Shown piece after piece: positions 504-14,066 of a DNA stretch of 14,066 nucleotides (the first letter of the stretch is position 1; each line of letters starts with the position of its first letter). The translations under genes and the position numbers were made by a program. This DNA comes from Kiritimatiellota bacterium (GTDB taxonomy: Bacteria; Verrucomicrobiota; Kiritimatiellia; JAAZAB01): contig VSJD01000115.1 of the NCBI GenBank assembly GCA_008636095.1, forward strand, positions 1 through 14,066. Reading direction: 5' to 3'. The notes beneath the pieces are model-generated. The model made no database searches and had not been told where the DNA came from. It saw nothing but the letters and a program-made list of their open reading frames with translations.

Positions 504-1394
504 TCAGCCGCGATGCATACGATGCTGGCGAAGGTGGAAAAGCCGGCGCACATCGTCCACAAAGGGCCGGTCGGTTGTCAGCGCCAGGCGGTCCACTTTG
601 AGCCGCTGAAATTGCTTGTCACGCGCGAGTTCCTCGGCCGCGGCCTGAGCCTGGAACGACTTCAATAAACGACGGGAACTCGTGTCCACCATCATCAGGT
701 CGCCTGTTTCCGGGTTGAGAACTTCCAATAGCCCGATATTGGGCAGGCTCTGCTCGCGGGGATCGGAAATCGGACAGGCGATCAGGTCGTGGTGACGTGC
801 CATGACCCGTAATTCCTTTTCATATCCCGTTGCCAGAAAATCAGAAATCAGGAACACCACGGCCCGGCGTTTCTGTACCTTGTTCAGGAACTGCAGGGCC
901 GCGCCCAAGTTAGTTTCGCGGCGTGTTTCCTCGGCCGCCAGCACTTCCCGCACCAGTCGCATCGCGGCCGTCCGGCCCTTGCGCGGCGGAATGTAGCGCT
1001 CAATCCGGTCGGAGAACAGGATCATGCCGACCTTGTCCTGGTTTTTAATGGCCGAGAGCGCCAGGAGACTGGTCAGTTCGGCGGCCACCTCGGCCTTGGA
1101 ACGCAGGCCGGACCCGAAAATCATGGAGCCGGAAATGTCCACCAGGAAAATAATCGTCAATTCCCGTTCTTCGCAGAAGCGCTTGACATAGGGGTGGCCC
1201 ATGCGGGCCGTAACGTTCCAGTCAATGGAGCGCACGTCATCACCGGGCACGTATTCGCGCACTTCGTCGAATTCCATGCCCCGTCCTTTGAAGACGGAGT
1301 GATACTCGCCGAAAATGTGTTCGTCCACAAGCTTGGCCGTAACCACCTTGATCCGGCGGACATGCTTCATCAGTTCTTTGGTGTCAATGGGCAT
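504..1394 (-). CDS. DUF58 domain protein with vWA/MIDAS-like fold
   Basis: 296 residues, a normal length for the family. The DUF58 signature is clear: VFKGRGMEFDEVREYVPGDD followed by VRSIDWNVTAR (about residues 34-64). A vWA-type metal site follows, with DxSxS as DISGS (D86, S88, S90), then NLGAAL and VFLISDFLA as further fold elements. The role is not defined biochemically. DUF58 proteins are almost always encoded beside MoxR ATPases and are thought to be their partners or substrates in assembly of membrane or envelope complexes. That fits here, with MoxR immediately upstream (114 bases). The start is ATG 1394, which matches the usual family N-terminus (KELMKHVRRIKV). It has no recognisable Shine-Dalgarno sequence because the repeat array runs up to it, so translation may depend on coupling or be weak. 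No membrane segment is evident. Confidence 0.9.
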   Translation of the reverse strand: MPIDTKELMKHVRRIKVVTAKLVDEHIFGEYHSVFKGRGMEFDEVREYVPGDDVRSIDWNVTARMGHPYVKRFCEERELTIIFLVDISGSMIFGSGLRSKAEVAAELTSLLALSAIKNQDKVGMILFSDRIERYIPPRKGRTAAMRLVREVLAAEETRRETNLGAALQFLNKVQKRRAVVFLISDFLATGYEKELRVMARHHDLIACPISDPREQSLPNIGLLEVLNPETGDLMMVDTSSRRLLKSFQAQAAAEELARDKQFQRLKVDRLALTTDRPFVDDVRRLFHLRQHRMHRG

Positions 1395-1508: not shown

Positions 1509-2498
1509 TCACGGCACTGGTATGTCGTTCAACAGGCGCGTGATCAGGTCCTCACTGGTGACTTCTTCCGCCTCCGCTTCATATGTCAGCATGATACGGT
1601 GCCGGAGCACGTCATGGGCGATTTCCTTGACGTCCTGGGGCGTGGCGTAACCGCGGCCGTGTAACATGGCGTTGGCGCGGGAGGCCAGGTTCAGGTAAAG
1701 CGTGGCTCGCGGCGAAGCCCCATACTCAATCTGGTGATCCGCCGGGATGTTGTAGGCCGAAGGCTGGCGCGTGGCAAACACGAGGTCAAGGATATATTCG
1801 CCCACCTTTTCATCGCAATAGACCTGGTCCAGCAGATCGCGCAACAGGAAGATCTGATCGGACGACATAACGGAGTTGACCTGAGCATCCCGTTTGCGCG
1901 TGAATCGGTTCATAATCCGGCGTTCGTCGTCCTTGGAGGGATAAGTGACCTTGCATTTTAGCATGAAGCGGTCAATCTGGGCCTCGGGCAGGGGATAAGT
2001 GCCTTCCTGTTCGATGGGGTTTTGCGTGGCCATGACCAGGAACGGCTCCGGCAGGGGATACGTATGGTCGCCAATCGTCACTTGGTGTTCTTGCATGGCC
2101 TCCAAAAGGGCCGACTGCACCTTGGCCGGGGCCCGGTTAATTTCATCCGCCAGCAGGAGGTTGGTGAAGACCGGTCCCTTTTTGACCGAAAATGTTCCGG
2201 TACGCGGATCATAAATCATCGTGCCGATCAGATCGGCCGGCAACAGATCCGGCGTGAAACTAATCCGTTGGAACTTGAGTCCCAGTGTCTGGGCCAGCGT
2301 TTTGACGGCCGTGGTTTTGGCCAGTCCCGGCACACCTTCCAGCAGGATGTGGCCGCCAGTGATGAGCGCAATCAGCATGCGGTCCAGCATGTGCTCCTGG
2401 CCCACCATGATTTTCATTACTTCCTGGCGTACGCTGTCGATGGCCTTGGTCTGTTCGTGAATCAGGTCGGTGGTCTTGGTGATTTCGGTATGGTCCAT
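1509..2498 (-). CDS. MoxR-family AAA+ ATPase
   Basis: 329 residues, typical length. AAA+ motifs in order: Walker A GVPGLAKT (55-62), the MoxR segment RISFTPDLLPADLIGT (78-93), Walker B LLLADEINRAP (114-124), sensor 1 ATQNP (157-161) and the arginine-finger region PEAQIDRF (171-178). A C-terminal lid domain includes ASPRATLYLNLASRANA. MoxR proteins are cytosolic ATP-driven chaperones that act on vWA/DUF58 partners. The DUF58 gene directly downstream and the probable BatD-like gene after it make the standard set. ATG 2498 is preceded by GGAG with 8-base spacing (2510-2507), which fixes the start. The upstream spacer holds an inverted-repeat element. Function of the set in this organism cannot be read from sequence. 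Confidence 0.95.
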   Translation of the reverse strand: MDHTEITKTTDLIHEQTKAIDSVRQEVMKIMVGQEHMLDRMLIALITGGHILLEGVPGLAKTTAVKTLAQTLGLKFQRISFTPDLLPADLIGTMIYDPRTGTFSVKKGPVFTNLLLADEINRAPAKVQSALLEAMQEHQVTIGDHTYPLPEPFLVMATQNPIEQEGTYPLPEAQIDRFMLKCKVTYPSKDDERRIMNRFTRKRDAQVNSVMSSDQIFLLRDLLDQVYCDEKVGEYILDLVFATRQPSAYNIPADHQIEYGASPRATLYLNLASRANAMLHGRGYATPQDVKEIAHDVLRHRIMLTYEAEAEEVTSEDLITRLLNDIPVP

Positions 2499-2752: not shown

Positions 2753-3967
2753 TCAGTCCTCTGGTCTGGTGTCCGGCGTCTGTCGTCTGTCGTCGTTCTT
2801 TGGTCCTCCGGGCGGCTCTGTTTTTTTGATCAGTTCCGTGCGCTTAATCAGGAACGGCTCCGCCCGATAGGACTTTAGGATGAATGTCCAGGTCACTAAC
2901 CGGTCGTTCAGTACCTTGGCTTCATCCGCCCTCTTGGCGGATTCATCCGCCTTGGCCGCATCCAGCGTGTTGGTCTTGGCATCCTGCGGTCTGTCGTCTG
3001 GTTCTGCCGGTGCCTTCCAGGCCACCGCCACCTGGACATAGCGATCAAAGGTGTCGTTGGTCAGCGTGTTGCCGATGCGTAATGTGTAAATCTGGCCCTG
3101 TCGTGTTTGGGCTTCGAATACCACCGGATGCTCCAGTCCGGTCTCTTTTGGGGACAGGGTGGGGGCGGCAATATCGTCAAATCCCAGGATGTTCAGCGCG
3201 CCGCTAATCTGGTTTACCTTGGCAGTGTCTAATGTGCCTTCCTCTTCCTTCAACCCTTCGAGCGTGAATGGCTCGCCATTTTTCGACCGCACCAGGTTGA
3301 TCGGCGCGCGGTCGGGCGCGGTGACCGTAATATTCTGGATATCATTGGCGGCAACATTGACAAACTCGTTGGCCAGCCAGTTTTTAACGTCGTCGGTCAG
3401 GCGGTCGAGGGTTTGGCCAACCAGAATAACGCGGCCATCGGCTGTCTGCACGTATTGCCCGTCCGGATAATTGCCAAAGGCAAGCGGTCCTTGCATGCTG
3501 CCGTCGGGGGAGGCGCGCATAAAAGGTTTGCCGATGAGCAGGGTGGCTATGAGCCCGTCATTTTCATCCCGCAGTTCCACGCGCGTTCCGGCCTGCTCTT
3601 TGCGGCCCGGGGATATTCCAACGGGGTTCAGCAGGTTGAAGGCGCCTTTCTGCGATTCACTTGCGGTTATGACTTGACCCACCTTCATCTCGCTGAGCTG
3701 AAGCAGGCCATCGGCGATCTTGTCGAAGGCGGCGGGATAATTAAATCGGTTTGCCACGGTCCAGATACCTTTAAACTTGGCCAGCGTGAGGGTGTTGTCC
3801 GTGGTGATCAGCACGATTTTGTTCACTCGGTTGATGGGCAGGTTGGGCAGGACTTTCGTGCCGATCAGGGCGATTCCCGGTTTTGGTTGAGGCCGCAGAG
3901 TCCAGACAGCCCAACCGATCAGAGCGCCTGCCAACACAACGAGCAGAATAAGGTTACGCGTCTTCAT
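2753..3967 (-). CDS. DUF4340 protein, membrane-anchored partner of GldG-type ABC system
   Basis: 404 residues. There is an N-terminal membrane anchor at about 5-23 (NLILLVVLAGALIGWAVWTL) followed by a large extracytoplasmic part. Features match the DUF4340 pattern: INRVNKIVLITTDNTLTLAKF near the front, then GIWTVANRFNYPAAFDKIADGLLQL, then repeated beta/alpha units ending around WTFILKSYRAEPFLIKR. Family members are usually encoded right after GldG-like proteins, as here (158 bases upstream), and are presumed to work with that ABC transporter outside the membrane. Biochemistry is unknown. Oddities: a charged linker (about 318-345) contains EPDDRPQD, encoded by a heptamer-repeat copy (2988-3000), and the C-terminus NDDRRQTPDTRPED is encoded by a heptamer array. 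ATG 3967 is chosen because it begins the anchor. A GGGAGG lies rather far upstream. Confidence 0.85.
   Translation of the reverse strand: MKTRNLILLVVLAGALIGWAVWTLRPQPKPGIALIGTKVLPNLPINRVNKIVLITTDNTLTLAKFKGIWTVANRFNYPAAFDKIADGLLQLSEMKVGQVITASESQKGAFNLLNPVGISPGRKEQAGTRVELRDENDGLIATLLIGKPFMRASPDGSMQGPLAFGNYPDGQYVQTADGRVILVGQTLDRLTDDVKNWLANEFVNVAANDIQNITVTAPDRAPINLVRSKNGEPFTLEGLKEEEGTLDTAKVNQISGALNILGFDDIAAPTLSPKETGLEHPVVFEAQTRQGQIYTLRIGNTLTNDTFDRYVQVAVAWKAPAEPDDRPQDAKTNTLDAAKADESAKRADEAKVLNDRLVTWTFILKSYRAEPFLIKRTELIKKTEPPGGPKNDDRRQTPDTRPED
2754..2800. repeat. Heptamer array within the DUF4340 3' end
   Basis: On the transcribed strand the units read GACGACA, GACGACA, GACGCCG, GACACCA, GACCAGA, with period 7. 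They run through the last codons to the stop. The same 12-13-base core (CAGACGACAGAC) also appears at 2988-3000 in the same gene and at 4106-4118 just past the GldG stop, and a variant array lies at 6155-6202. Confidence 0.7.
2988..3000. repeat. Heptamer copy inside the DUF4340 gene
   Basis: On the plus strand GGTCTGTCGTCTG here is identical over 13 bases to 4106-4118 in the GldG 3' spacer. Here it is translated as part of EPDDRPQD in a charged linker (about residues 319-326). Confidence 0.55.
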
Positions 3968-4125: not shown

Positions 4126-6057
4126 TCAATGCATCACGCTCTGCCGTCGGTACCAGCCGAAGGCCAGGCCCGCCAGACAAACCAGTATGGGCACGGCCAG
4201 GATATTGATGGCCTTGACCTTCACGCCAAGCTCTTCGATACCTTCCCGCAGGTTTTTGCGCACCTGCTTGAGTTCATGCTGGGTCTTGATCTGTTCCTGT
4301 TTGAACTTGGCGATTTCCTGTTCCTGCTCGGCGCTGAGAATGAAGCGTTGGCTTTTGTCTTTCTTGGACTGCAGGCTTTCCAGTCGTTCCTGGGTGGCGG
4401 CCAGCTGTTCCTGGAGCGTGCGTTCCTGCATCATCCAGCGCTGTTGTGCTTCGCTCTGGAGCTCTTGGACGCGGTCAAACGGGCGTTCGAATCGGCCGCG
4501 CGCGCGGATCTGGCCCAAGTCTGCACTGCCGGAAAGCTGTTCGACTGCGTTGGCAAAGAAATTGACGTTGTCATTCAGCGGCTGAAACACGCGCTGACCG
4601 AAAATCGGCAATTCCTGCACGGCGAAGGCGTCGTAAAGCATATCCACGTCCGCCACCAGGATCACCGTGCCGGGTTTGGCGCTTTCCTGCAGGGCCGGGG
4701 TAGTGTCTTCCAGTTTCACCGGTTCCTTCTCGCTCGCGGCCGGATTTTTTTTCTCCGTGTCCGGCGCCGCCTTGGGCTTGCCTTGCGGAAAAGCAGTTTT
4801 AAACTTGCCTTGCAGGCGGATGGCCAAATTCAGGCGCTTGCCTCCGCTCTTGAACTCGCTGCGGATGGCTTCCGTACCCATCTGGACGGCCATCGCGCTG
4901 ATAAGCGCAGACTGGTCCGAGGAAACCAGCAGGGAGCCGACGCTCAAACCTTCCTTGCCGGTTCCGGCAAACGCGCCGGCAATGGGCAGGCCCAGCGATT
5001 CCAGCGAGGACGTAATCATGTCCTTGCCGTCAATATTGAATTTACGAAGGCTGAGAAATACGGGATTGTCCTCGATCGTATTATCACCGCGTTGCACACG
5101 GGTACTTGCCGAGAGGTCGGCAACGACCTTATCGGGCTCATAGGTAATGCCCCAAGCGGCGGTCAAGCGGCCGAGATCGGATATCGGGCGCGCCATGCCC
5201 ATGCCCATGGCCGCCTCCTGGTTCATGGCGTCCGCCAGGCACAGGGGGTCAATGAATGCCAGCAGACGGCCGCCGCGCAGGACGAACTGGTCAATAGCGT
5301 ATTGTGTCTTCTCAGAGATCGCCTTGGGATGTACAACGATCAAGACATCAATGGCGGGATCAATTGCGTCTGCCTCGACGGGCAGTTGACGCACATCGTA
5401 GTCCTTGTTCAGGTCCTGGAAAGCTACCCAGGGCGGCTGGTTCTTGGGGCGCGGTTGGCCCGGCATGGCATACGGAAACGTACGCACACCCATGACCGGC
5501 AGACTGCTCAGGATACCGACCACCGGTTTTTTTGGGTTCGCCACGCGGGTGATCATGCGGGTAATGTTGTATTCCAGCATTTCCTCGTTGCGCGGGTCGA
5601 GGAAAGGCAGGACCGTATTGGCGTCGCCTTTCACGGCCACGAGGCCCAAGTAAAGAACGGAGTCCGTAATCCCCATCTGTTCGCCGACGAGTCCGTAGCG
5701 TTGTGCCCATTCCTCGGCGTCCGAGTCCGGTTTGGGATTGTAGGTTTCAACCAATATCTTGCCGCCGGAGGCCAATTCATATTCCTTCAGTAAATCCTCC
5801 ACCTGCCTGGCAAAATTCTTGAGCGGCATGGGAACTTCCGAGGCGCCACCGGAAAAGAAAAATTTCAGGGTCACGGGTTCGTCCAGGGACTTTAACACGG
5901 TGCGCGTGCCTTCCGAGAGGGTATAGAGTTTTTCTTCCGTCAGGTCCACGCGCGCCCGGACCCGACTGAGCAGAATATTGACCGCGATCAGGATGGCCAG
6001 CAGGGCCAGCAAACCGACCAGACTGCCGGTGAATTTCCAGATTTGCCGTGCTTTCAT
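4126..6057 (-). CDS. GldG-like ABC transporter auxiliary/substrate-binding protein
   Basis: 643 residues. N-terminal membrane segment at about 11-30 (GSLVGLLALLAILIAVNILL), then the family hallmark VDLTEEKLYTLSEGT (38-51) and VTLKFFFS (62-69). The central region has GATase-like beta/alpha features (PAIDVLIVVHPKAIS; RGGRLLAFIDPL at 261-272). A low-complexity Lys/Pro/Glu linker follows at about 418-462, then a predicted coiled coil at about 530-612 (rich in Q, E, K) and a C-terminal membrane segment at about 617-636 (INILAVPILVCLAGLAFGWY). Both ends are therefore in the membrane with the bulk outside. This is the COG3225-type protein that accompanies GldA/GldF ABC-2 transporters. Outside Bacteroidota it does not by itself imply gliding. 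AAGGA sits 7 bases before ATG 6057. The preceding gene is the permease, 145 bases away. Confidence 0.88.
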   Translation of the reverse strand: MKARQIWKFTGSLVGLLALLAILIAVNILLSRVRARVDLTEEKLYTLSEGTRTVLKSLDEPVTLKFFFSGGASEVPMPLKNFARQVEDLLKEYELASGGKILVETYNPKPDSDAEEWAQRYGLVGEQMGITDSVLYLGLVAVKGDANTVLPFLDPRNEEMLEYNITRMITRVANPKKPVVGILSSLPVMGVRTFPYAMPGQPRPKNQPPWVAFQDLNKDYDVRQLPVEADAIDPAIDVLIVVHPKAISEKTQYAIDQFVLRGGRLLAFIDPLCLADAMNQEAAMGMGMARPISDLGRLTAAWGITYEPDKVVADLSASTRVQRGDNTIEDNPVFLSLRKFNIDGKDMITSSLESLGLPIAGAFAGTGKEGLSVGSLLVSSDQSALISAMAVQMGTEAIRSEFKSGGKRLNLAIRLQGKFKTAFPQGKPKAAPDTEKKNPAASEKEPVKLEDTTPALQESAKPGTVILVADVDMLYDAFAVQELPIFGQRVFQPLNDNVNFFANAVEQLSGSADLGQIRARGRFERPFDRVQELQSEAQQRWMMQERTLQEQLAATQERLESLQSKKDKSQRFILSAEQEQEIAKFKQEQIKTQHELKQVRKNLREGIEELGVKVKAINILAVPILVCLAGLAFGWYRRQSVMH

Positions 6058-6202: not shown

Positions 6203-6946
6203 TTACGCCGCTTTCCGGTTTTCCAGCACCAGGTGGGTGCCGAATAGCATGAATATCATCACGCTGAAGTAATATGCGAAATCGCGCAGGTCCAGTACGC
6301 CTTTCTGAAACGCCTCATAGTGCGGCATGAAACTGAAGGCCGCCACGCCGCGCACCAGCCATTCCGGCGCCCAGCGCACCATGAGGTCCGTTACGGGCGG
6401 CCAGCCGGCCAGCAGGAGAAACAGGCAGATGACCAGCGAGAGCACGAAGCTGATGACTTGGTTGCGCGTCAAGGCCGAGGTCAGCATGCCGACCGAGAGA
6501 TAGGCGCCGGCCAGTAGAAGGCTCCCGATATAGCCGCCAATGATGGCGCCGCGGTCCGGAGCGCCCAGATAGACCGTGGTCAGCACGATGGGGAAGGTCA
6601 ACGCCACGATGAGCCCGATAAAAATCCAAGCCGCCAGAAATTTACCGAGGATCACCTGCGTGACCGTCACGGGCAGGGTCAGCAGGGTTTCAATGGTCCC
6701 GGCACGGCGCTCTTCGGCCCAGAGCCGCATGGCCGCGGCCGGCACGAGAATGAGAAACATCCACGGATGCCAGAAGAAAAAACCGCGCAAGTCAGCCTGG
6801 CCACTTTCGTAAAAGCGGGACACGAAAAACGTCAGAAACCCGACCAGCATTATAAATACAATCATAAACACGTAGGCCACCGGCGACTCAAAGTATGACG
6901 CCAGCTCGCGTTTGATGATGGCCTTGGTATTGCGTATCGAATCCAT
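6203..6946 (-). CDS. ABC-2 type permease (GldF-like)
   Basis: 247 residues with about six hydrophobic segments (roughly 22-44, 60-75, 97-126, 134-156, 164-184, 223-241). The conserved ABC-2 motif RLWAEERRAGTIETLLTLPV (75-94), with EERRxGTIExLLTxPV, sits after the second segment. It forms the membrane channel of an ATP-driven exporter, with the ATPase encoded 113 bases upstream and the GldG-like protein downstream. The substrate is unknown. The start was set at ATG 6946 because AAGGAG lies 8 bases before it and the family normally begins a few residues before IIKRELASYF. The frame stays open further upstream to about 7138, but that extension only translates the octamer repeats (for example HSHTLTPIRPYAHT) and overlaps the ATPase gene, so it is rejected. 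Confidence 0.92.
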   Translation of the reverse strand: MDSIRNTKAIIKRELASYFESPVAYVFMIVFIMLVGFLTFFVSRFYESGQADLRGFFFWHPWMFLILVPAAAMRLWAEERRAGTIETLLTLPVTVTQVILGKFLAAWIFIGLIVALTFPIVLTTVYLGAPDRGAIIGGYIGSLLLAGAYLSVGMLTSALTRNQVISFVLSLVICLFLLLAGWPPVTDLMVRWAPEWLVRGVAAFSFMPHYEAFQKGVLDLRDFAYYFSVMIFMLFGTHLVLENRKAA

Positions 6947-6964
6947 ATATTCATCTCCTTTCCA

Positions 6965-7059
6965 CGTATGGGCGTATGGGCGTATGGGTGTGAGAGTATG
7001 GGAGTGCAAATGCAGATCTTTACTCCGATACTTCCATACTCCGATACTCCCATACTTCT
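6965..7059. repeat. Inverted octamer arrays filling the ATPase-permease spacer
   Basis: After the ATPase stop the transcribed strand reads AGTATGGG, AGTATCGG, AGTATGGA, AGTATCGG (7057-7021). A short unique middle follows, then inverted units ACTCCCAT, ACCCATAC, GCCCATAC, GCCCATAC (about 7005-6966), then the permease ribosome site. The period is 8. The two halves are complementary over stretches such as GTATGGGAGT/ACTCCCATAC, so a long imperfect RNA hairpin is possible. Confidence 0.8.
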
Positions 7060-8037
7060 TCAGTTCTTCGGTTCGGTCAGTTCGCGGAAGACGTCGTCCA
7101 GCCGTCCTTCCAGGGTTTTCATTGCGACCAATTCCCACCCCGGGTTGGCCTTGACCAGTGCCAGGATGTCAGGGGCCAGCTGCGCTGGTCCAGCGGCGAT
7201 GGCCGCTCCAGCGGCTGACGGACGGGGGTAGACCACCACGCGGGACATCTGGCCCCCGGTCGTCTGCGGCGGGTGAACTTCCACGCGGGCGGCGGAGGTC
7301 AAGCGCTCCAGTTTGGCCACCAGGTCGCCGGGCACCGATTTGACCGTCAGTTCTACCGCGCCGTGCGCGCGGCTTTTGGCCTTCAGTTCGGTCGGCGAGG
7401 CGTTAGCAACGATCGAACCGTCGCGGATAATGATGACGCGTGTGCAGATTGCCTCCACTTCCTCGAGGATGTGGGTGGAAATCACAATGGCCTTGCGCGC
7501 GGCCATGTCGCGAATCATGGTGCGGACAATATGTTTCTGGTTCGGATCCAGCCCATCGGTGGGTTCGTCCATGATGAGCACCGGCGGATCGTGCAGGAGC
7601 GCCTGGGCAAAGCACACGCGCTGTTTATATCCCTTTGATAGCGTTCCGATTGCCTGGTGCTTGACGGTATCCAGCCGGCAGGTTTCAATGGTTTGCTGGA
7701 CGCGCTCTGTGCGCACGCGGCCGGTAAAGCCCCGGATTTCGGCGATGAATCCCAGGTAATTCCAGACGGTCATGTCGGTATAAACCGGTGCATTCTCCGG
7801 CAGATAACCGATCAACTTCTTGGCAGGAATGGCGGCATGGATAATATCGTGCCCCATGATGACCGCCGTGCCCGCCGTAGGCGGCAGAAAGCCGGTGATC
7901 ATGCGCATCGTGGTGGTTTTGCCCGCGCCGTTGGGGCCCAGGAAGCCGAGGACTTCGCCCTGGGCAACCTGAAAAGACACGTCACGGACCGCGTGGATCA
8001 GTCCGAATGTTTTTTGGAGTTGCTTGACTGCCAGCAT
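7060..8037 (-). CDS. ABC transporter ATP-binding protein (GldA-like)
   Basis: 325 residues. Motifs in order: Walker A GPNGAGKTT (34-42), Q-loop region with glutamate instead of glutamine (YLPENAPVY, 78-86; usual in this subfamily), signature LSKGYKQR (133-140), Walker B VLIMDEPT (153-160), D-loop GLD (162-164) and H-switch STHILEEVE (187-195). A C-terminal extension of about 100 residues follows the ATPase domain, as in drug/gliding-type ATPases (COG1131). It hydrolyses ATP at the inner membrane face to power the ABC-2 permease encoded next. AGGAGA with 6-base spacing (8049-8044) fixes ATG 8037. It is the first gene of the transporter train. The upstream 127 bases hold a hairpin and a weak promoter candidate. 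The substrate cannot be inferred. Confidence 0.95.
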   Translation of the reverse strand: MLAVKQLQKTFGLIHAVRDVSFQVAQGEVLGFLGPNGAGKTTTMRMITGFLPPTAGTAVIMGHDIIHAAIPAKKLIGYLPENAPVYTDMTVWNYLGFIAEIRGFTGRVRTERVQQTIETCRLDTVKHQAIGTLSKGYKQRVCFAQALLHDPPVLIMDEPTDGLDPNQKHIVRTMIRDMAARKAIVISTHILEEVEAICTRVIIIRDGSIVANASPTELKAKSRAHGAVELTVKSVPGDLVAKLERLTSAARVEVHPPQTTGGQMSRVVVYPRPSAAGAAIAAGPAQLAPDILALVKANPGWELVAMKTLEGRLDDVFRELTEPKN

Positions 8038-8163: not shown

Positions 8164-8191
8164 ATTATCGAATTGTAATGGATCTGACAAG
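8164..8191 (-). promoter_or_regulatory. Weak sigma-70-type promoter candidate for the ABC train
   Basis: GATAAT (minus strand, 8169-8164) with CTTGTC 16 bases upstream (8191-8186) overlaps the last codons of the Hsp20 gene. A start about 8157 would give a leader of about 120 bases carrying the 8072-8092 hairpin. The match is partial and the element could be chance. Confidence 0.25.
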
Positions 8192-9019
8192 TGAGTTGGT
8201 CTCCGCCGCCTTGGGAATGTGCACGCAGAGCACATCATGTTCGTACGTGGCCAGCGCGCCGGTACCTTCGATATTGTCCGGCATCATGATCTGCGTGTGA
8301 AACTGGCCCTGGCGCGCGATTGGGGCGTTCCGGGTAGCCGTGGCCTGTGCGCGGGACGTCCGAGCGGCATCAATGATCAACAAACGGCCTTCCAGACTGA
8401 TCGTGATCCCCTGCTTGTCATATCCCGGCAGGGCTACCGTGACCACATAATTACTGCCCTGATCTTCAATATTCATGGCCGCGGCCGAGGGTACCATGTC
8501 CCATCCACGGTTAAACCGAGATAACAAAGTGCTTTGTCGGCTTTCGTTATAGGCGTCCTCAAAGATTCGCTCGATTTCCCGCTGGAGCTGGTTCAGATCA
8601 CGGTCGGACGTTGGCATGGCCGGGGGCCGATTCCTGCTTTCGCGCTGAATGGCGATGCCGGGGAACGGCCCGCCGGCCATGGTTGCGCCAAAGTTCGGGG
8701 TCATATTTCGCAACAGCCGGTTAATCTGATCGTGGATTTGTTCGAGATCGTCCGTGGTTTCCCAAAAAACGACCTGGTTATCCGGTGGGCTTAAGGCCGC
8801 TTGACGGGATTTGTCGGCCAGGCCCGGCAGAACCTTCTGCAATCGTTCGTGCCATGCCCGGGATAGTAGCCGACCATCCCGTTCGGTTTTTATTCCAAAC
8901 AGCATGACGCCCTGTACAAAGGTCACGACGCACAGCACGATAATCACGGCGATCAGAATCCAGTTGGCCCTGGATTTCCGATTGGGTTCAGTATTGGTAT
9001 CTGGAATGTTTGTTTCCAT
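8165..9019 (-). CDS. Membrane-anchored small heat shock protein (Hsp20/alpha-crystallin domain)
   Basis: 284 residues, about twice the size of ordinary Hsp20. A basic N-terminus leads into one membrane segment at about 20-43 (WILIAVIIVLCVVTFVQGVMLFG). The linker has two amphipathic helices of similar type, FWETTDDLEQIHDQINRLL (85-103) and DLNQLQREIERIFEDAY (141-157), the second resembling the helix that normally precedes the alpha-crystallin domain. The domain itself spans about 180-272, with NYVVTVALPGYDKQGITISL, EGRLLIID, GQFHTQIMMPDNI and LATYEHDVLCVHIPK. The C-terminal ITI (281-283) matches the I-x-I oligomerisation motif. By the positive-inside pattern the chaperone domain should face the periplasm. 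It probably holds unfolding envelope proteins. A strong sigma-54 promoter lies just upstream, and the NtrC-type regulator is the preceding gene. The Shine-Dalgarno sequence is weak. Confidence 0.85.
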   Translation of the reverse strand: METNIPDTNTEPNRKSRANWILIAVIIVLCVVTFVQGVMLFGIKTERDGRLLSRAWHERLQKVLPGLADKSRQAALSPPDNQVVFWETTDDLEQIHDQINRLLRNMTPNFGATMAGGPFPGIAIQRESRNRPPAMPTSDRDLNQLQREIERIFEDAYNESRQSTLLSRFNRGWDMVPSAAAMNIEDQGSNYVVTVALPGYDKQGITISLEGRLLIIDAARTSRAQATATRNAPIARQGQFHTQIMMPDNIEGTGALATYEHDVLCVHIPKAAETNSLVRSITIR

Positions 9020-9046
9020 GGTCGAAAAATGATTTATGATTACATA

Positions 9047-9062
9047 GCACCAATCGTGCCAA
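9047..9062 (-). promoter_or_regulatory. Sigma-54 (-24/-12) promoter of the Hsp20 gene
   Basis: On the minus strand TTGGCACGATTGGTGC has GG at 9060-9059 and GC at 9048-9047 with exactly 10 bases between. TGGCACG matches the consensus -24 block fully, and GTGC is close to the TTGC -12 block. Transcription would start near 9035, about 16 bases before ATG 9019. An NtrC-type activator is encoded immediately upstream. Confidence 0.8.
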
Positions 9063-9129
9063 GATTACCTGCTCTCGGTTTCATTATCGTAGCCGTGCCG
9101 GTGATAGCGTGGCGGTTATGGAAATACCG

Positions 9130-9160
9130 GACAAAATGTCCGCGGACATGACATTTTGTC
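9130..9160. promoter_or_regulatory. Paired dyads, candidate activator (enhancer) sites
   Basis: GACA-AAA-TGTC (9130-9140) and GACA-TTT-TGTC (9150-9160) are two short dyads with centres 20 bp apart, about two helical turns. They are also exact inverses of each other, and a 14-bp palindrome ATGTCCGCGGACAT (9136-9149) overlaps both. They lie 68-101 bases upstream of the sigma-54 promoter, a normal distance for an NtrC-family activator. Binding by the regulator at 9265-10614 is inferred. The alternative is that they are part of the neighbouring repeat element. Confidence 0.55.
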
Positions 9161-9180
9161 GCCTTCTGGAACGAGGAACA

Positions 9181-9234
9181 CCACGTCGCCCCGTAGCGGG
9201 GCAAATGGCCGCTTGGCGCCAAGCACCGACGTGG
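9181..9234. repeat. Branched palindromic element
   Basis: Outer arms CCACGTCG (9181-9188) and CGACGTGG (9227-9234) enclose two further hairpins: CCCCG-TAG-CGGGG (9189-9201) and the perfect 14-bp palindrome GCTTGGCGCCAAGC (9211-9224). A three-way-junction fold is possible. The outer arms are the same as at 405-425. It lies between the regulator stop and the Hsp20 upstream region. There is no T-run on the transcribed strand. Confidence 0.65.
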
Positions 9235-9264
9235 AAGAACCAGGAACGCAGCTTGGCCGTCTCG

Positions 9265-10614
9265 TCAAAACGGCAAATCGCATTCCTTGATCTTGCGCTG
9301 GATGGTGCGGGTGGAAATACCCAGTTCTTCCGCCGCTAAATTACGACTGCCTGTATGCCGGGTCAGTGATTGCAGGAGTGCCTGCCGCTCGATCTCGGCC
9401 AGGGTCGTCTGCGGAGGGATGTTAATTTCTGCGGGGGGGTGTTCTCCGGGTGGGACCAGGTTCAGACTGGCGGTGGTCAGCCGGGATGTGGTTGCCATTA
9501 TAACCGCAGACTCGACCGCGTTTTTCAACTCGCGGACATTGCCGCTCCAGGGATGGCGCTCCAGAGTTTTATAAAAACCATCCTCGATCTCGTCAATGTG
9601 CCGGCCATGCAGGCTACAGGCAGCAGTAATGAAGAAATCCGCCAAGGGTCGAATATCTTCGCGCCGTTCCCGCAACGGCGGTATGTGGATTGTGACCACC
9701 TGCAGGCGATAAAGTAAATCGTGGCGGAAGGTACGTTCGGCAACGAGGTCATCCAGGTTGCGATTGGAGGCCGAAATCACGCGCACGTCAATGGGAATTG
9801 GCTTGCTTCCCCCCACCCGGATAATTTCACGTTCTTCCAAAACCCGCAAAAGCCTGATCTGCACGGCAGGGGGCGCGATGCCGATTTCATCCAGGAATAG
9901 CGTGCCGTTCTGGGCGCGCTCGAAAGCGCCTGCGTGTTGATTGACGGCGCCGGTGAAAGCGCCTTTTTCATGGCCGAACAATTCCGATTCGAGCAGGGAT
10001 TCCGAAAAAGCCCCGCAGTTAACGGCCACGAACGGTCCATCGGCGCGGGCGCTGCCATCATGCAGGGCGCGGGCAATCAGTTCCTTGCCGGCGCCGCTTT
10101 CCCCGAGAATCAACACCGTGGCCTGGGTGGCGGCAACGGTTTTCACCTGGCGGAGCACCTCGATCATAGCGGGCGAGACCGCGATGATCTCACGGCCGTA
10201 GAGCGCCTTTTTGAATGATGAAACCTGTGAACGCAGTCGCCGGTTTTCGATGGCATGCGCCACTTTGGACTGAATATCCGTCAGGTCAAGCGGTTTGAGA
10301 ATGTAATCGTAGGCACCGGATTTGAGCGCGGCCACGGCGGCTGATACGGTTCCGTAGGCCGTCATGAGCAGGACGGGGATGTCGGCATTGATCGCCCGCA
10401 GGCGTTCCTGGACTTTATGGCCGTCAAGGTCCGGGAGCCGGATATCCGAGAGCACGGCATCGAAGGTTTGTTCCTGGAACAGGCGGATGCCCGTATCTCC
10501 CGTGGCGGCGGTGACCACCGTATAACCGGATTCTTCCATGGCTTCCGCCACGGAACGGCGCCCGTCAGGGTCATCCTCGATGATCAGGATTCGGGCTGTG
10601 GGTTCTTTGCTCAT
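9265..10614 (-). CDS. NtrC-family sigma-54-dependent response regulator
   Basis: 449 residues from ATG 10614. Receiver domain about 7-122: acidic pocket E13/D14/D15, phosphorylated D57 in LSDIRLPDLDG, T85 and K107. AAA+ domain about 140-375: Walker A GESGAGKE (171-178), the sigma-54-contacting loop GAFTGA (218-223), Walker B GTLFLDEIG (237-245). A Fis-type HTH lies at the C-terminus (NLAAEELGISTRTIQRKIKE). All key residues for phosphorylation, ATP hydrolysis and sigma-54 contact are present, so it should be a working activator. It probably pairs with the kinase at 12642-13982, although another gene lies between them. Likely targets are the dyads at 9130-9160 and hence the Hsp20 gene. A TTG codon at 10623 could add three residues. 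Neither start has a clear ribosome site. Confidence 0.95.
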   Translation of the reverse strand: MSKEPTARILIIEDDPDGRRSVAEAMEESGYTVVTAATGDTGIRLFQEQTFDAVLSDIRLPDLDGHKVQERLRAINADIPVLLMTAYGTVSAAVAALKSGAYDYILKPLDLTDIQSKVAHAIENRRLRSQVSSFKKALYGREIIAVSPAMIEVLRQVKTVAATQATVLILGESGAGKELIARALHDGSARADGPFVAVNCGAFSESLLESELFGHEKGAFTGAVNQHAGAFERAQNGTLFLDEIGIAPPAVQIRLLRVLEEREIIRVGGSKPIPIDVRVISASNRNLDDLVAERTFRHDLLYRLQVVTIHIPPLRERREDIRPLADFFITAACSLHGRHIDEIEDGFYKTLERHPWSGNVRELKNAVESAVIMATTSRLTTASLNLVPPGEHPPAEINIPPQTTLAEIERQALLQSLTRHTGSRNLAAEELGISTRTIQRKIKECDLPF

Positions 10615-10691
10615 CAGGGTCAAGATAATGAAAATGGTGATAAAATTACAGAATAAAGTTCAAACGATTCGCTCCGAAGCCGATCCCCATA

Positions 10692-10791: not shown

Positions 10792-12510
10792 TTATGGCAG
10801 GTAGAACGGGTTCGGCAACAGCGCTCCGGCCGCGGCCTCGATTTCAAGTCGAATAAATCCCTGCGCACCGCACAGCTCCGAGGACAACTCCCGGAGCAGT
10901 TCATTTTGGCCATCCAGCGCTTCGGAATAGAAGAGCCCGTTCTTGTCGCAGACCCGCAACTCGCGCAGTGGCGTCGGTGAATTAACGCTTAACTTGATGG
11001 GACTTAACGCCGGGACCGCGTCGCCGGGCCGGAATTTTCCCATGCGGACGTCGGCACGGTCGATGTTCCACGCCGGCATAAGATGGCGCGCTTTGATTGC
11101 GGCGACCACGGTTTCACGCGATGGTTCGCCGTCGAGGTAGATGAAGCTGAACAACGGATTTTCGCGCAGTCGCTGGAGACCCCACATATCGACCGAGGTC
11201 AACATCGCGATCCGCTTACCGGAGCCGAGGTGGCGGTCCAGCGCCGAGCCGGCGAGGCGGAAATTTTCGGGCTGCGGCGGCTTGATATACCCGCGGAACG
11301 CCACATCTACCGCGTCGAGGTCATAGTCTAGCCAGAAATCCTCAGTTGGGTGCGTGGCGGCGCAGGCCCCGCCGTTTTCCCGTATAAAAGCGATGGCGCG
11401 CCGGATGTAATGGTCGATTTCGGTGCGGTCAAAGAGGCTTTGGGTAAAGTCCGTGGTGTATCTGGTGGTTCCGAGCGCGAGAATATGGAAATCGTTGTGT
11501 CCCTTGGACCCCGCCTGCCAGTTGAACGGATGAAACTCCTGTCCCGGCAGCAGCAGTACACGGTCGTCGCAGCACGGTTCGATATCGGCGAAGTCGTGCA
11601 GTGGCCTGGTGTCCTTCACGCTGAACACCCCGATGTCGAAGTTATGGAACTTCATCGCCGCCGCGATTGCGGCCGGAGCGGCGTCGGCGCCGTACCAGTC
11701 GAGACTGTGCAGATGGACAATCATCCGGTAATTGTTTTTTTTCGGGAGCTTTTTCGGCTTTGGTGGTGCGACGGTCTCCTTCCCGGTGCGGAGATCGGCA
11801 AAGTAGTTCAGCGCATTGATGATGTACCGGTCCCAGAAGGCCAGGCAGCGGTCGTCCTCGGTGTGCCGGAGTTCCGGGAACAACAGCTGATTCCAGAAGA
11901 ACATCCCTTTGACGTAGCGCAAACGGGCGACCAGTGCCCCATCGTCGACGCAGCCGTCGCGGTAGCTGCCCAGCACCTGCCACGGCTGATAGTTTACGAT
12001 ACAACTGGTCGCGGTGCTCCGTATGAAATCGCCTCCCTCGTTCGGAGCGCACGTGCCGAATGAATTGCCGGGGACGCTCCAGTAGACGAATTCGGAGCTG
12101 TCGATCGCGTTCGGCGTGCCGAACAATCCAACTCCGGCGGGTTCCACCAACGGCAAGAGATAGCTCTTGTGCCGGGGCGAAATGGTGTTGAAATATCGCT
12201 TTACCAGACAAGGTCGCCCCGCTTCGTCCGGCAGAAAATCGGTATGCCAGCGCTCGTAATCCTGATGCATAATCCAACAGATGCCGCCATTGGCGATGAA
12301 GTGGTGGAGGTAGTCGGCGTTATTTTCAAAATAGTCGTCCAGCCCGTTCTGTTCCAGGACCAGTACGTCGATGTCGTCGAGGTAACCGCGCCGTTTGAAG
12401 TCGATGGTTTTGACATTGCAGCCGAATTTTTCCCGCAGACGGTCGGTGATCTTGGATTTCCCCTGGAACCAGTGCGGCCAGGTACCGAAGCGCAGAGGCG
12501 GTATATTCAT
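10792..12510 (-). CDS. ThuA-like plus PHP-like metallohydrolase domain protein (CehA/McbA type)
   Basis: 572 residues, no signal peptide, probably cytosolic. The N-terminal part (about 1-240) looks like a ThuA/class I amidotransferase-like fold: DDIDVLVLEQNGLDDYF, then FIANGGICWIMHQD. A Lys/Pro linker (243-260) joins it to a PHP-like region (about 261-480). That region has VHLHSLDWYG with the metal-binding HxH (H266, H268), PGQEFH with E325, HNDFHILALG with H338, ATHP with H387, and SVDMW with D441. The usual TDHN segment is degenerate (SVKD, 297-300). A small beta domain closes the protein (about 500-572), as in CehA/McbA-like enzymes. The substrate is unknown; related enzymes cleave phosphoester or carbamate-type bonds. 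ATG 12510 follows GAGGA; an upstream TTG (12522) is less likely. The gene splits the kinase-regulator pair and has its own promoter candidate. Confidence 0.65.
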   Translation of the reverse strand: MNIPPLRFGTWPHWFQGKSKITDRLREKFGCNVKTIDFKRRGYLDDIDVLVLEQNGLDDYFENNADYLHHFIANGGICWIMHQDYERWHTDFLPDEAGRPCLVKRYFNTISPRHKSYLLPLVEPAGVGLFGTPNAIDSSEFVYWSVPGNSFGTCAPNEGGDFIRSTATSCIVNYQPWQVLGSYRDGCVDDGALVARLRYVKGMFFWNQLLFPELRHTEDDRCLAFWDRYIINALNYFADLRTGKETVAPPKPKKLPKKNNYRMIVHLHSLDWYGADAAPAAIAAAMKFHNFDIGVFSVKDTRPLHDFADIEPCCDDRVLLLPGQEFHPFNWQAGSKGHNDFHILALGTTRYTTDFTQSLFDRTEIDHYIRRAIAFIRENGGACAATHPTEDFWLDYDLDAVDVAFRGYIKPPQPENFRLAGSALDRHLGSGKRIAMLTSVDMWGLQRLRENPLFSFIYLDGEPSRETVVAAIKARHLMPAWNIDRADVRMGKFRPGDAVPALSPIKLSVNSPTPLRELRVCDKNGLFYSEALDGQNELLRELSSELCGAQGFIRLEIEAAAGALLPNPFYLP

Positions 12511-12538
12511 GATGGTCCTCAATGTTCTTTAGATTTTC

Positions 12539-12641: not shown

Positions 12642-13982
12642 TCATGCCTGCATGGGAATCCGGATGACAAAGCGGCTGCCTTTGCCGGAGGCCGGGGTTT
12701 CCACGTAAATGGCGCCGCCGCAGTTTTCCACTGCAGTTTTGGCCAGGGCCAGGCCGATGCCCGTGCCGCCGGGCCGCCGGGAAAAGAAGATTTCAAAGAT
12801 ACGACTATGGTCGGCGCGGGGGATGCCGGGGCCCTCGTCGGTAACAGTCACAATCGCCTGGCAATGCTCCCCCCGTGTTTGCACCGTTACCGTGCCATCC
12901 ACGGGCGAAAAGTGCTCGGCGTTGTTCAACACATTAGACAGCGCCCGTTTGAATTGCACGGGATAGCCCCGGACGTAGAGCGGCGTCGGCGAGAGTCCCA
13001 AGACAACCTGGATCCTGGCTTTGGCAAACCGGTGTTTGACCAGCTCGATGCAATCCTGTACGCAGGTGTTAAGGTCGAATCGTTCCCGGGCTGCGGCGTC
13101 CGGTTTGTAAATCACCAAAAACTCACCCAGCAGGGTATCCATCCGGTCAATTGTCTGCGTAATGCGGTTGGCCAGGTCCAGCAGCCGTTCGGGACGGCCG
13201 GCGGGTCCCTTGGCGGCTTCATGCTGGAGAAGCTGGGCGTCCAGCCGCATGGCCGACATGGGATTCCGGAAATCATGTATAATGCTGCCGGCCATGGCGC
13301 CCGCAAAGGAGAGGTGCTCGTTTAGCCGCTGGCGTTTCTGCCAGGTCAGCTCACGCCGGACCAGGCCGATGACGGCCAGCAGGCAAAGGCCAAACGAAAC
13401 CACCAGGGTCAGGAGCGACATATGGAACATCGTGGTCACGGCCGTGGTGGCGCCCGCATGTTCGCGCTCAAATACATTCTTGCGGAAAGCCACCTGCAGA
13501 TCGCGTGCGCGGCCTTCGGGGTAACGGAAGGTGCGGGTGAACGTGATTACGGGAATCATGTTCGTGCCTATCCATAGTTTTTTTCGCCCCATGCTTACCG
13601 TTTCCGGACGGTTGGTGGCGGGGGTGGTGGATTTTCCCTGTTCCGACGCCAGGCGCGCCTGCTTGTGATAGATAATGGCACCACGTTCGCTGACCGATAC
13701 ATATTCCAAGCCGGGGTCCACCATCTGCAAGGCATCCACTACTCGTCCGAACTGTTCGGCATCTTCCTTGCCAACGGCGCTTTTGCTGAAAAATGGCTGG
13801 TGCTCCAAATCCCTGGTCACCAGGAGTCCGTATTGGATGGCCGACAGCGTCGAGGATGAGCGTGCCGTGCTCTCGTACAGGTTGACAAGCAGCCAAAGGT
13901 TGACAATCGCCACGCCGGCAATTAGCAGAATCACCAGCCCGGCGATAGGGATCAGCGGAGTATGACGACGGGAATTGTGCAT
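12642..13982 (-). CDS. Two-transmembrane sensor histidine kinase
   Basis: 446 residues from ATG 13982. Membrane segments at about 10-36 (LIPIAGLVILLIAGVAIVNL) and 189-208 (SLLTLVVSFGLCLLAVIGLV) enclose a periplasmic sensor of about 150 residues with a PAS/Cache-like strand pattern (LEYVSVSERGAIIYH). There is no HAMP domain. The HisKA H-box is SIIHDFRNPMSAMR with H236; the acidic residue after His is Asp rather than the commoner Glu. HATPase motifs: N-box LSNVLNNAEHF (348-358), G1 DEGPGIP (382-388), G2 GGTGIG (405-410). It should autophosphorylate and pass phosphate to the NtrC-type regulator at 9265-10614. A TTG at 14057 would add 25 residues but overlaps the promoter candidate, so the ATG is preferred. 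The ribosome site is weak. The signal sensed is unknown. Confidence 0.92.
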   Translation of the reverse strand: MHNSRRHTPLIPIAGLVILLIAGVAIVNLWLLVNLYESTARSSSTLSAIQYGLLVTRDLEHQPFFSKSAVGKEDAEQFGRVVDALQMVDPGLEYVSVSERGAIIYHKQARLASEQGKSTTPATNRPETVSMGRKKLWIGTNMIPVITFTRTFRYPEGRARDLQVAFRKNVFEREHAGATTAVTTMFHMSLLTLVVSFGLCLLAVIGLVRRELTWQKRQRLNEHLSFAGAMAGSIIHDFRNPMSAMRLDAQLLQHEAAKGPAGRPERLLDLANRITQTIDRMDTLLGEFLVIYKPDAAARERFDLNTCVQDCIELVKHRFAKARIQVVLGLSPTPLYVRGYPVQFKRALSNVLNNAEHFSPVDGTVTVQTRGEHCQAIVTVTDEGPGIPRADHSRIFEIFFSRRPGGTGIGLALAKTAVENCGGAIYVETPASGKGSRFVIRIPMQA

Positions 13983-14022
13983 AGTAGGTTCATATTGTAA
14001 AGTGTCTTGAATGCAGGAGAAC

Positions 14023-14053
14023 TTATAAGGGGGTATAGTAAAAAGCATGTCAA
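14023..14053 (-). promoter_or_regulatory. Sigma-70-type promoter candidate for the sensor kinase
   Basis: A consensus TTGACA (minus strand, 14053-14048) is followed 19 bases later by TTATAA (14028-14023). The -35 is perfect but the spacer is longer than ideal. A start near 14015 would give a leader of about 33 bases to ATG 13982. Confidence 0.35.
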
Positions 14054-14066
14054 GCAAAAAATTTGG

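Follow-up and report, generated by a model that had tools for sequence, protein, structure and literature searches.

What controls the small heat shock (Hsp20) gene found on this Kiritimatiellia contig, and what would this control serve? The window (the whole stretch of DNA analysed, 14,066 nucleotides long) was initially annotated as carrying a sigma-54 promoter and two phased dyads upstream of the Hsp20 gene, beside the gene of a sigma-54 activator. We consider it likely that a sigma-54 two-component envelope-stress system of the class Kiritimatiellia acts here, with this locus as its output promoter, and for the core of this reading, the promoter and its activator, our confidence is high. 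The following features carry the argument.

9150..9160, unstranded: distal candidate activator dyad GACATTTTGTC (GACA-N3-TGTC), the pair being conserved in orthologous loci
9130..9140, unstranded: proximal candidate activator dyad GACAAAATGTC (GACA-N3-TGTC), 20 bp from the distal dyad
9047..9062, minus strand: sigma-54 -24/-12 promoter TTGGCACGATTGGTGC, with a predicted start at about 9035
8165..9019, minus strand: small heat shock protein with an alpha-crystallin domain and a predicted membrane anchor, its gene heading the operon (Pfam HSP20, hydropathy, AlphaFold/Foldseek)
9265..10623, minus strand: NtrC-type sigma-54 response regulator, presumed dyad-binding activator (domains, co-occurrence)
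12642..14057, minus strand: membrane-bound sensor histidine kinase, the presumed partner of this regulator (domains, profile loci, model)

Sigma-54 promoters follow the consensus TGGCACG-N4-TTGCW, with GG and GC 10 bp apart. The box first annotated 28 bp before the Hsp20 start was located on the minus strand at 9062-9047, where TTGGCACGATTGGTGC showed the GG-N10-GC spacing and one mismatch to the consensus (aligned at 9061-9046), its last base lying 28 bp from the Hsp20 ATG (9019). It was the only sigma-54 site of the window at up to one mismatch (1 vs. a mean of 0.14 in 100 shuffles), and the genome encoded RpoN. A simple scan of the minus strand from 8950 to 9320 returned no sigma-70-like site. 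Over the whole genome, 37 sigma-54-like sites (up to one mismatch) were counted vs. 23 for the reversed control; a lone box of this kind means little in this genome.

The dyads GACAAAATGTC and GACATTTTGTC started 20 bp apart, as first described, and occupied the positions 68-98 bp upstream of TTGGCACGATTGGTGC, rather than the 68-101 bp given initially. Their centres fell at about -100 and -120 relative to the predicted start. The tandem sites of NtrC-type activators lie roughly 100-150 bp ahead of the start, and -100/-120 is a usual place for such an enhancer. Lone GACA-N3-TGTC sites were no more frequent in the genome than chance predicts (33 vs. 33 for the reversed control). The exact pair at 20-bp spacing was single copy in the genome and never appeared when the window was shuffled 2000 times by mononucleotide; allowing up to two mismatches at fixed spacing added one genome site (contig C95), and the reversed control also gave one. 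Dyads scattered over unrelated loci had been foreseen as an outcome opposed to the proposal, and no such scatter was found for the pair in this genome. An origin from a repeat or mobile element was rejected on the single copy of the pair (the repeat listing of the window had a minimum length of 12 and is therefore blind to 11-bp dyads).

The pair was conserved among relatives of the window. Within the family, an Hsp20 ortholog was found in 6 of 10 genomes, and all 6 upstream regions, including that of the window, carried the exact pair with dyads 20-22 bp apart, as the initial annotation had proposed to check; no ortholog was found in the 4 others, 3 of which are at most 70% complete. Across the class, 32 of 345 genomes held an exact pair (8-12 bp between dyads), against 1 of 345 for the reversed control. 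A regulator ortholog (E <= 1e-130) was present in 77 of the 345 genomes, with one match per genome, and the exact pair occurred in 26 of these 77 vs. 6 of the 268 without ortholog (Fisher p 8e-14, kinship ignored). It was absent from 51 of the 77 regulator-bearing genomes, partly because contigs end.

From the 26 genomes with both regulator and exact pair, 26 loci were taken (L001 and L085-L109, second pairs in G005 and G098 left out), and at 19 of them the pair adjoined the Hsp20 and/or kinase gene. Two others lay before DegP-like genes (L106, L107), two adjoined LptE genes, and three (L086, L087 and L089) had no recognisable target. The two genomes with the LptE cases (L108, 1501-1532; L109, 27-58) belong to a single genus. 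About 270 bp on from the L108 pair, a sigma-54-like site preceded an ORF resembling a type II secretion F protein on reading of its translation alone.

The same sites emerged from a survey of kinase loci. A kinase profile run against GTDB genomes gave 79 loci, 77 of which were used in the counts; L259 and L260 (Latescibacterota, Zixibacteria) were left out as weak kinase matches, L260 having a two-mismatch pair. By label, the 77 loci belonged to PVC groups, among them Kiritimatiellae, Verrucomicrobia and Lentisphaerae, or were given only as "(uncultured) bacterium". The regulator was found at 62 of them, Hsp20 at 35, the ABC gene at 21 and GldG at 20, many contigs being short, and at 31 of the 77 a divergent Hsp20 gene lay no more than 700 bp from the kinase gene. 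Near-exact pairs (up to 2 mismatches of 16) numbered 24 in the 54,177 bases at Hsp20/kinase starts vs. 0 in the other 952,254 bases, and 20 mononucleotide shuffles of the target regions gave a mean of 0; at 3 mismatches, 36 pairs were found in target regions vs. 20 elsewhere. No pair was detected at 53 of the 77 loci even at two mismatches, again partly as a result of contig ends. Class-wide and kinase-locus counts are not independent, because their loci overlap (common public genomes).

A scan of the target regions for 4-mer palindromes (gaps 0-15, at least 8 occurrences) ranked ACAA-N1-TTGT first (12 vs. 0.28 expected) and GACA-N3-TGTC second (29 vs. 1.2 expected), which are two views of one motif. 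A GlrR-like TGTC-N10-GACA as the true unit was rejected, the scan favouring GACA-N3-TGTC by the latter counts; TGTC-N11-GACA occurred 6 times in target regions (0.6 expected), as would follow from the spacing of the pair. The promoter was conserved as well: a sense-strand sigma-54 box stood upstream of 28 of the 35 Hsp20 genes vs. 0.36 expected, with 2 on the antisense strand, by a regular expression fixed after inspection of the upstream regions. The recurrence of pair and box at Hsp20 orthologs in several families, and the tracking of the regulator by the pair, support the initial view of Hsp20 as a probable direct target of sigma-54 and an NtrC-type activator.

By gene order, the target is the predicted head of a conserved multi-gene operon, and not the single Hsp20 gene first proposed. 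Behind it came the following genes.

7060..8037, minus strand: ABC transporter ATPase in this predicted operon (domain search and gene order)
6203..7138, minus strand: ABC-2 type permease in this predicted operon (ORF drawn from its first possible start; translation probably begins downstream of 7060)
4126..6057, minus strand: GldG-like ABC auxiliary protein, ABC_transp_aux (domain search and gene order)
2753..3967, minus strand: DUF4340 protein (domain search and gene order)
1509..2498, minus strand: MoxR AAA+ ATPase (domain search and gene order)
504..1394, minus strand: DUF58 / VWA protein (domain search and gene order)

The order Hsp20-ABC-permease-GldG-DUF4340-MoxR-DUF58 recurred, whole or in part, over 27 cluster loci, which were picked for holding cluster genes and three of which repeat others. 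The kinase and regulator genes were placed upstream and co-oriented (genus of the window), divergent from Hsp20, or at the lead of the ABC operon with Hsp20 divergent. At four loci where the ABC operon comes after the regulator, a sigma-54-like site between the regulator and ABC genes (L153, 6013; L171, 5805; L183, 4758; L249, 4537) suggests that the ABC genes have an additional promoter.

The Hsp20 protein matched Pfam HSP20 at 6.6e-10 over residues 184-283 (39.4 bits vs. a cut-off of 20.8). Its AlphaFold model (mean pLDDT 70) predicted a confident C-terminal beta-rich domain and a long helix at residues 15-47, and the best 50 PDB matches of this model in Foldseek were all small heat shock proteins. 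Small heat shock proteins are typically soluble oligomers of the cytoplasm with chaperone activity. With start codons chosen by script, hydropathy indicated an N-terminal transmembrane segment in 36 of 39 Hsp20 ORFs at kinase loci, the three exceptions being tandem extra copies at L194. The alpha-crystallin domain may be periplasmic, behind an N-terminal membrane anchor; positive charges displayed no clear preference for an outside location of this domain in several of the proteins, including those of the close relatives L184 and L185. In the Hsp20 profile, L095/G005 was excluded for an in-frame stop, L096 and L085 were trimmed to short C-terminal parts, L075 was shortened and L097 retained an extra N-terminus. 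At L067 (12444-13280)/L095 (G005), the Hsp20 gene was split by an in-frame TAA, reflecting either a decaying gene or an assembly error. At L194 (5074-8726)/L150 (726-4378), five Hsp20-like ORFs adjoined the kinase, three of them without a membrane anchor by hydropathy.

Genes for DegP/HtrA hint at a further output in some relatives. The query covered 30 genomes, all from the 77 regulator-bearing ones, and matched 16 places in 14 of them; with L282 (cut, no open frame) excluded, 15 readable DegP genes were counted. The pair (up to two mismatches) lay upstream of 7 of the 15, where 0.25 would be expected even at three mismatches, and the TTGGCAY core upstream of 7 (1.07 expected), both together in 6. 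Two of the genes (L269 and L273, those of L107 and L106) were the discovery cases, which leaves 5 of 13 as independent. Seven of the 15 had neither pair nor box upstream, and the genus of the window gave no DegP match over the cut-off. In two genomes DegP adjoined Hsp20: in L075/L256, which are the same genome, it stood between the Hsp20 and ABC genes, and in L201 it was a neighbour of Hsp20. Envelope stress fits this output better than heat shock, since the Hsp20 protein has a predicted membrane anchor and, in some relatives, dyads and sigma-54 sites also precede DegP/HtrA genes. The name "heat shock gene" used initially is misleading for such a membrane-anchored, possibly periplasmic protein.

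The composition of the operon, mostly ABC, GldG, MoxR and DUF58, also allows the circuit to be real with another output, a secretion, surface or gliding-like ABC machine for which the alpha-crystallin protein would be a dedicated assembly chaperone. Pairs beside LptE in L108 and L109, and the type II secretion F-like ORF of L108, agree with such a machine; the occurrence, in several genomes, of DegP/HtrA genes with these sites or within the operon points instead to protein quality control. We regard the ABC machine as a rather unlikely output, and it has the promoter part in common with the envelope-stress explanation.

Returning to the envelope-stress system, its regulator carried a receiver, a sigma-54 AAA+ domain and a Fis-type HTH, with GAFTGA in the translation, in agreement with the activator first annotated. 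Most positions of its recognition helix were at least 90% conserved among 63 sequences. In G005, G007 and G008, the regulator was on a different contig from the Hsp20 operon, and action in trans is therefore implied there. Among the best 25 of 113 NCBIfam matches to the regulator, and likewise the best 25 of 75 to the kinase, all were below their cut-offs. PrsR/PrsK, NtrC, AtoC, ZraR and GlrR were rejected as the regulator family on these missed cut-offs, and so was the PEP-CTERM PrsK/PrsR system (PEP_resp_reg 374.8 vs. a cut-off of 502.6, PrsK 67.7 vs. 300).

The regulator-promoter core of the "self-contained" circuit was upheld, while the conserved partner of the regulator, the histidine kinase at 12642-14057, had been omitted from it. 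The kinase model displayed a predicted alpha/beta domain between two long helices. No sensor family could be claimed, the Foldseek matches listed being kinases aligned mainly through their cores. Between the kinase and regulator genes lay a CehA/McbA-metallohydrolase-like ORF (10792-12522), under the NCBIfam cut-off; the gap between these genes measured about 600 bp in G003 and about 6.8 kb in G004.

The membrane histidine kinase would sense an extracytoplasmic signal and phosphorylate the NtrC-type regulator. We infer that this regulator binds the two GACA-N3-TGTC dyads, two helical turns apart; from there it would loop to RNA polymerase-sigma-54 at 9062-9047 and its ATPase would open the promoter. 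The output would be the membrane-anchored, possibly periplasmic alpha-crystallin chaperone and, transcribed behind it, the ABC/GldG/DUF4340/MoxR/DUF58 operon; in some relatives, the regulator would also drive the periplasmic protease DegP. Three features suggest envelope stress as the signal: the chaperone with its membrane anchor, the sites at DegP genes and the location of the kinase in the membrane.

Promoter and dyads could also be real, with a different NtrC-type activator from this genome binding the dyads and the neighbouring regulator linked to them for other reasons. The genome held 54 first-look candidates related to the regulator, and six genomes had the pair and no regulator ortholog at the threshold, among them G227 (L110, 1012-1695), where pair and sigma-54-like box stood at Hsp20 and neither a regulator nor a kinase ortholog reached the cut-offs; the kinase search was empty in these six, which is not informative on absence. 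The strong co-occurrence of pair and regulator, the finding of pairs in the stretch separating Hsp20 from the kinase gene in other families, and the strongly conserved recognition helix make another activator improbable. Pairs near HTH_36 genes (L112, 1501-1555, with three dyads; L113, 1501-1533), in genomes where again neither regulator nor kinase was found at the cut-offs used, are perhaps an unrelated use of the palindrome. A chance meeting of a sigma-54-like box and two short palindromes upstream of a gene under sigma-70 or a heat-shock repressor, to which single dyads at control level and single boxes at less than twice the control would lend themselves, is hardly credible given the conservation and enrichment of pair and box (24 pairs vs. 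0, 28 of 35 boxes) and the lack of a sigma-70-like site in the simple scan.

In layout and logic, the nearest known system is ZraPSR (HydHG) of E. coli and Salmonella, in which ZraR drives the divergent sigma-54 promoters of zraSR and of a periplasmic chaperone gene in envelope stress (PMC4987338). Both systems pair an NtrC-type sigma-54 regulator with a membrane kinase, and in many Kiritimatiellia loci, as in E. coli, the chaperone gene is divergent from the kinase-regulator pair, whereas in the window and in the two relatives from its genus the genes all run the same way. The system falls outside the ZraPSR family: identity is 41% between the regulator and ZraR and 29% for the kinase, compared along 262 residues of its kinase part, and NCBIfam scores were 369 bits vs. 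a cut-off of 760 for ZraR and 110 vs. 479 for ZraS, below the level of orthologs. Unlike in ZraPSR, an alpha-crystallin protein takes the chaperone place (BLASTP of Hsp20 against ZraP gave no match) and an ABC/GldG/MoxR operon is attached; the E. coli zraP-zraS gap held no exact GACA-N3-TGTC dyad. GlrKR (QseEF) of enterobacteria also has a sigma-54 response regulator, with the site TGTC(N)10GACA (PMC4987338). Its half-site letters are those of the dyads, in a different order and spacing, and it differs in the C-terminal HTH residues of the regulator and in gene neighbours.

Transcription of a small heat-shock gene by sigma-54, as considered here, has been predicted before. The sigma-54 promoter of E. 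coli ibpB reportedly gave only background sigma-54 ChIP signal and was taken as a misannotation (PMC4591121). In a 2025 PSSM survey, a heat-shock cluster that includes COG0071 was predicted to be under sigma-54, with enrichment in Planctomycetota and Bacteroidota, and the general idea is therefore not new; the passages on this cluster name no activator, and the main text does not contain "Kiritimatiell" (PMC12316311). With the E. coli example questioned (PMC4591121), the present locus is a clear candidate for this kind of control. In the open-licence literature, no description of the circuit was recognised (titles and abstract openings), and no paper joined "Kiritimatiell" with "sigma-54".

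The Cpx and sigma-E responses have a periplasmic chaperone and DegP among their outputs. Neither is known to use sigma-54, nor is RavA-ViaA known to be encoded alongside them. In V. cholerae, RavA-ViaA (AAA+ and VWA proteins) is reported to be linked to Cpx and a Zra-like system (PMC10848872), and the Kiritimatiellia operon resembles it in its MoxR and VWA-type proteins. We propose, tentatively, that the sigma-54 system could be the main envelope-stress response of the Kiritimatiellia, doing the job of sigma-E and Cpx elsewhere, with a regulon of tethered periplasmic alpha-crystallin chaperone, DegP and GldG/MoxR-VWA ABC machine acting jointly in envelope protein repair.

If the envelope-stress reading is true, the stress regulon of a little-studied, mostly uncultured class would become defined and its DNA code readable, and the sigma-54 envelope-stress layout of ZraPSR would recur with a different chaperone. 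An alpha-crystallin chaperone would then perhaps work outside the cytoplasm, and the GldG/DUF4340/MoxR/DUF58 ABC cluster would receive a functional hint, towards envelope protein quality control.
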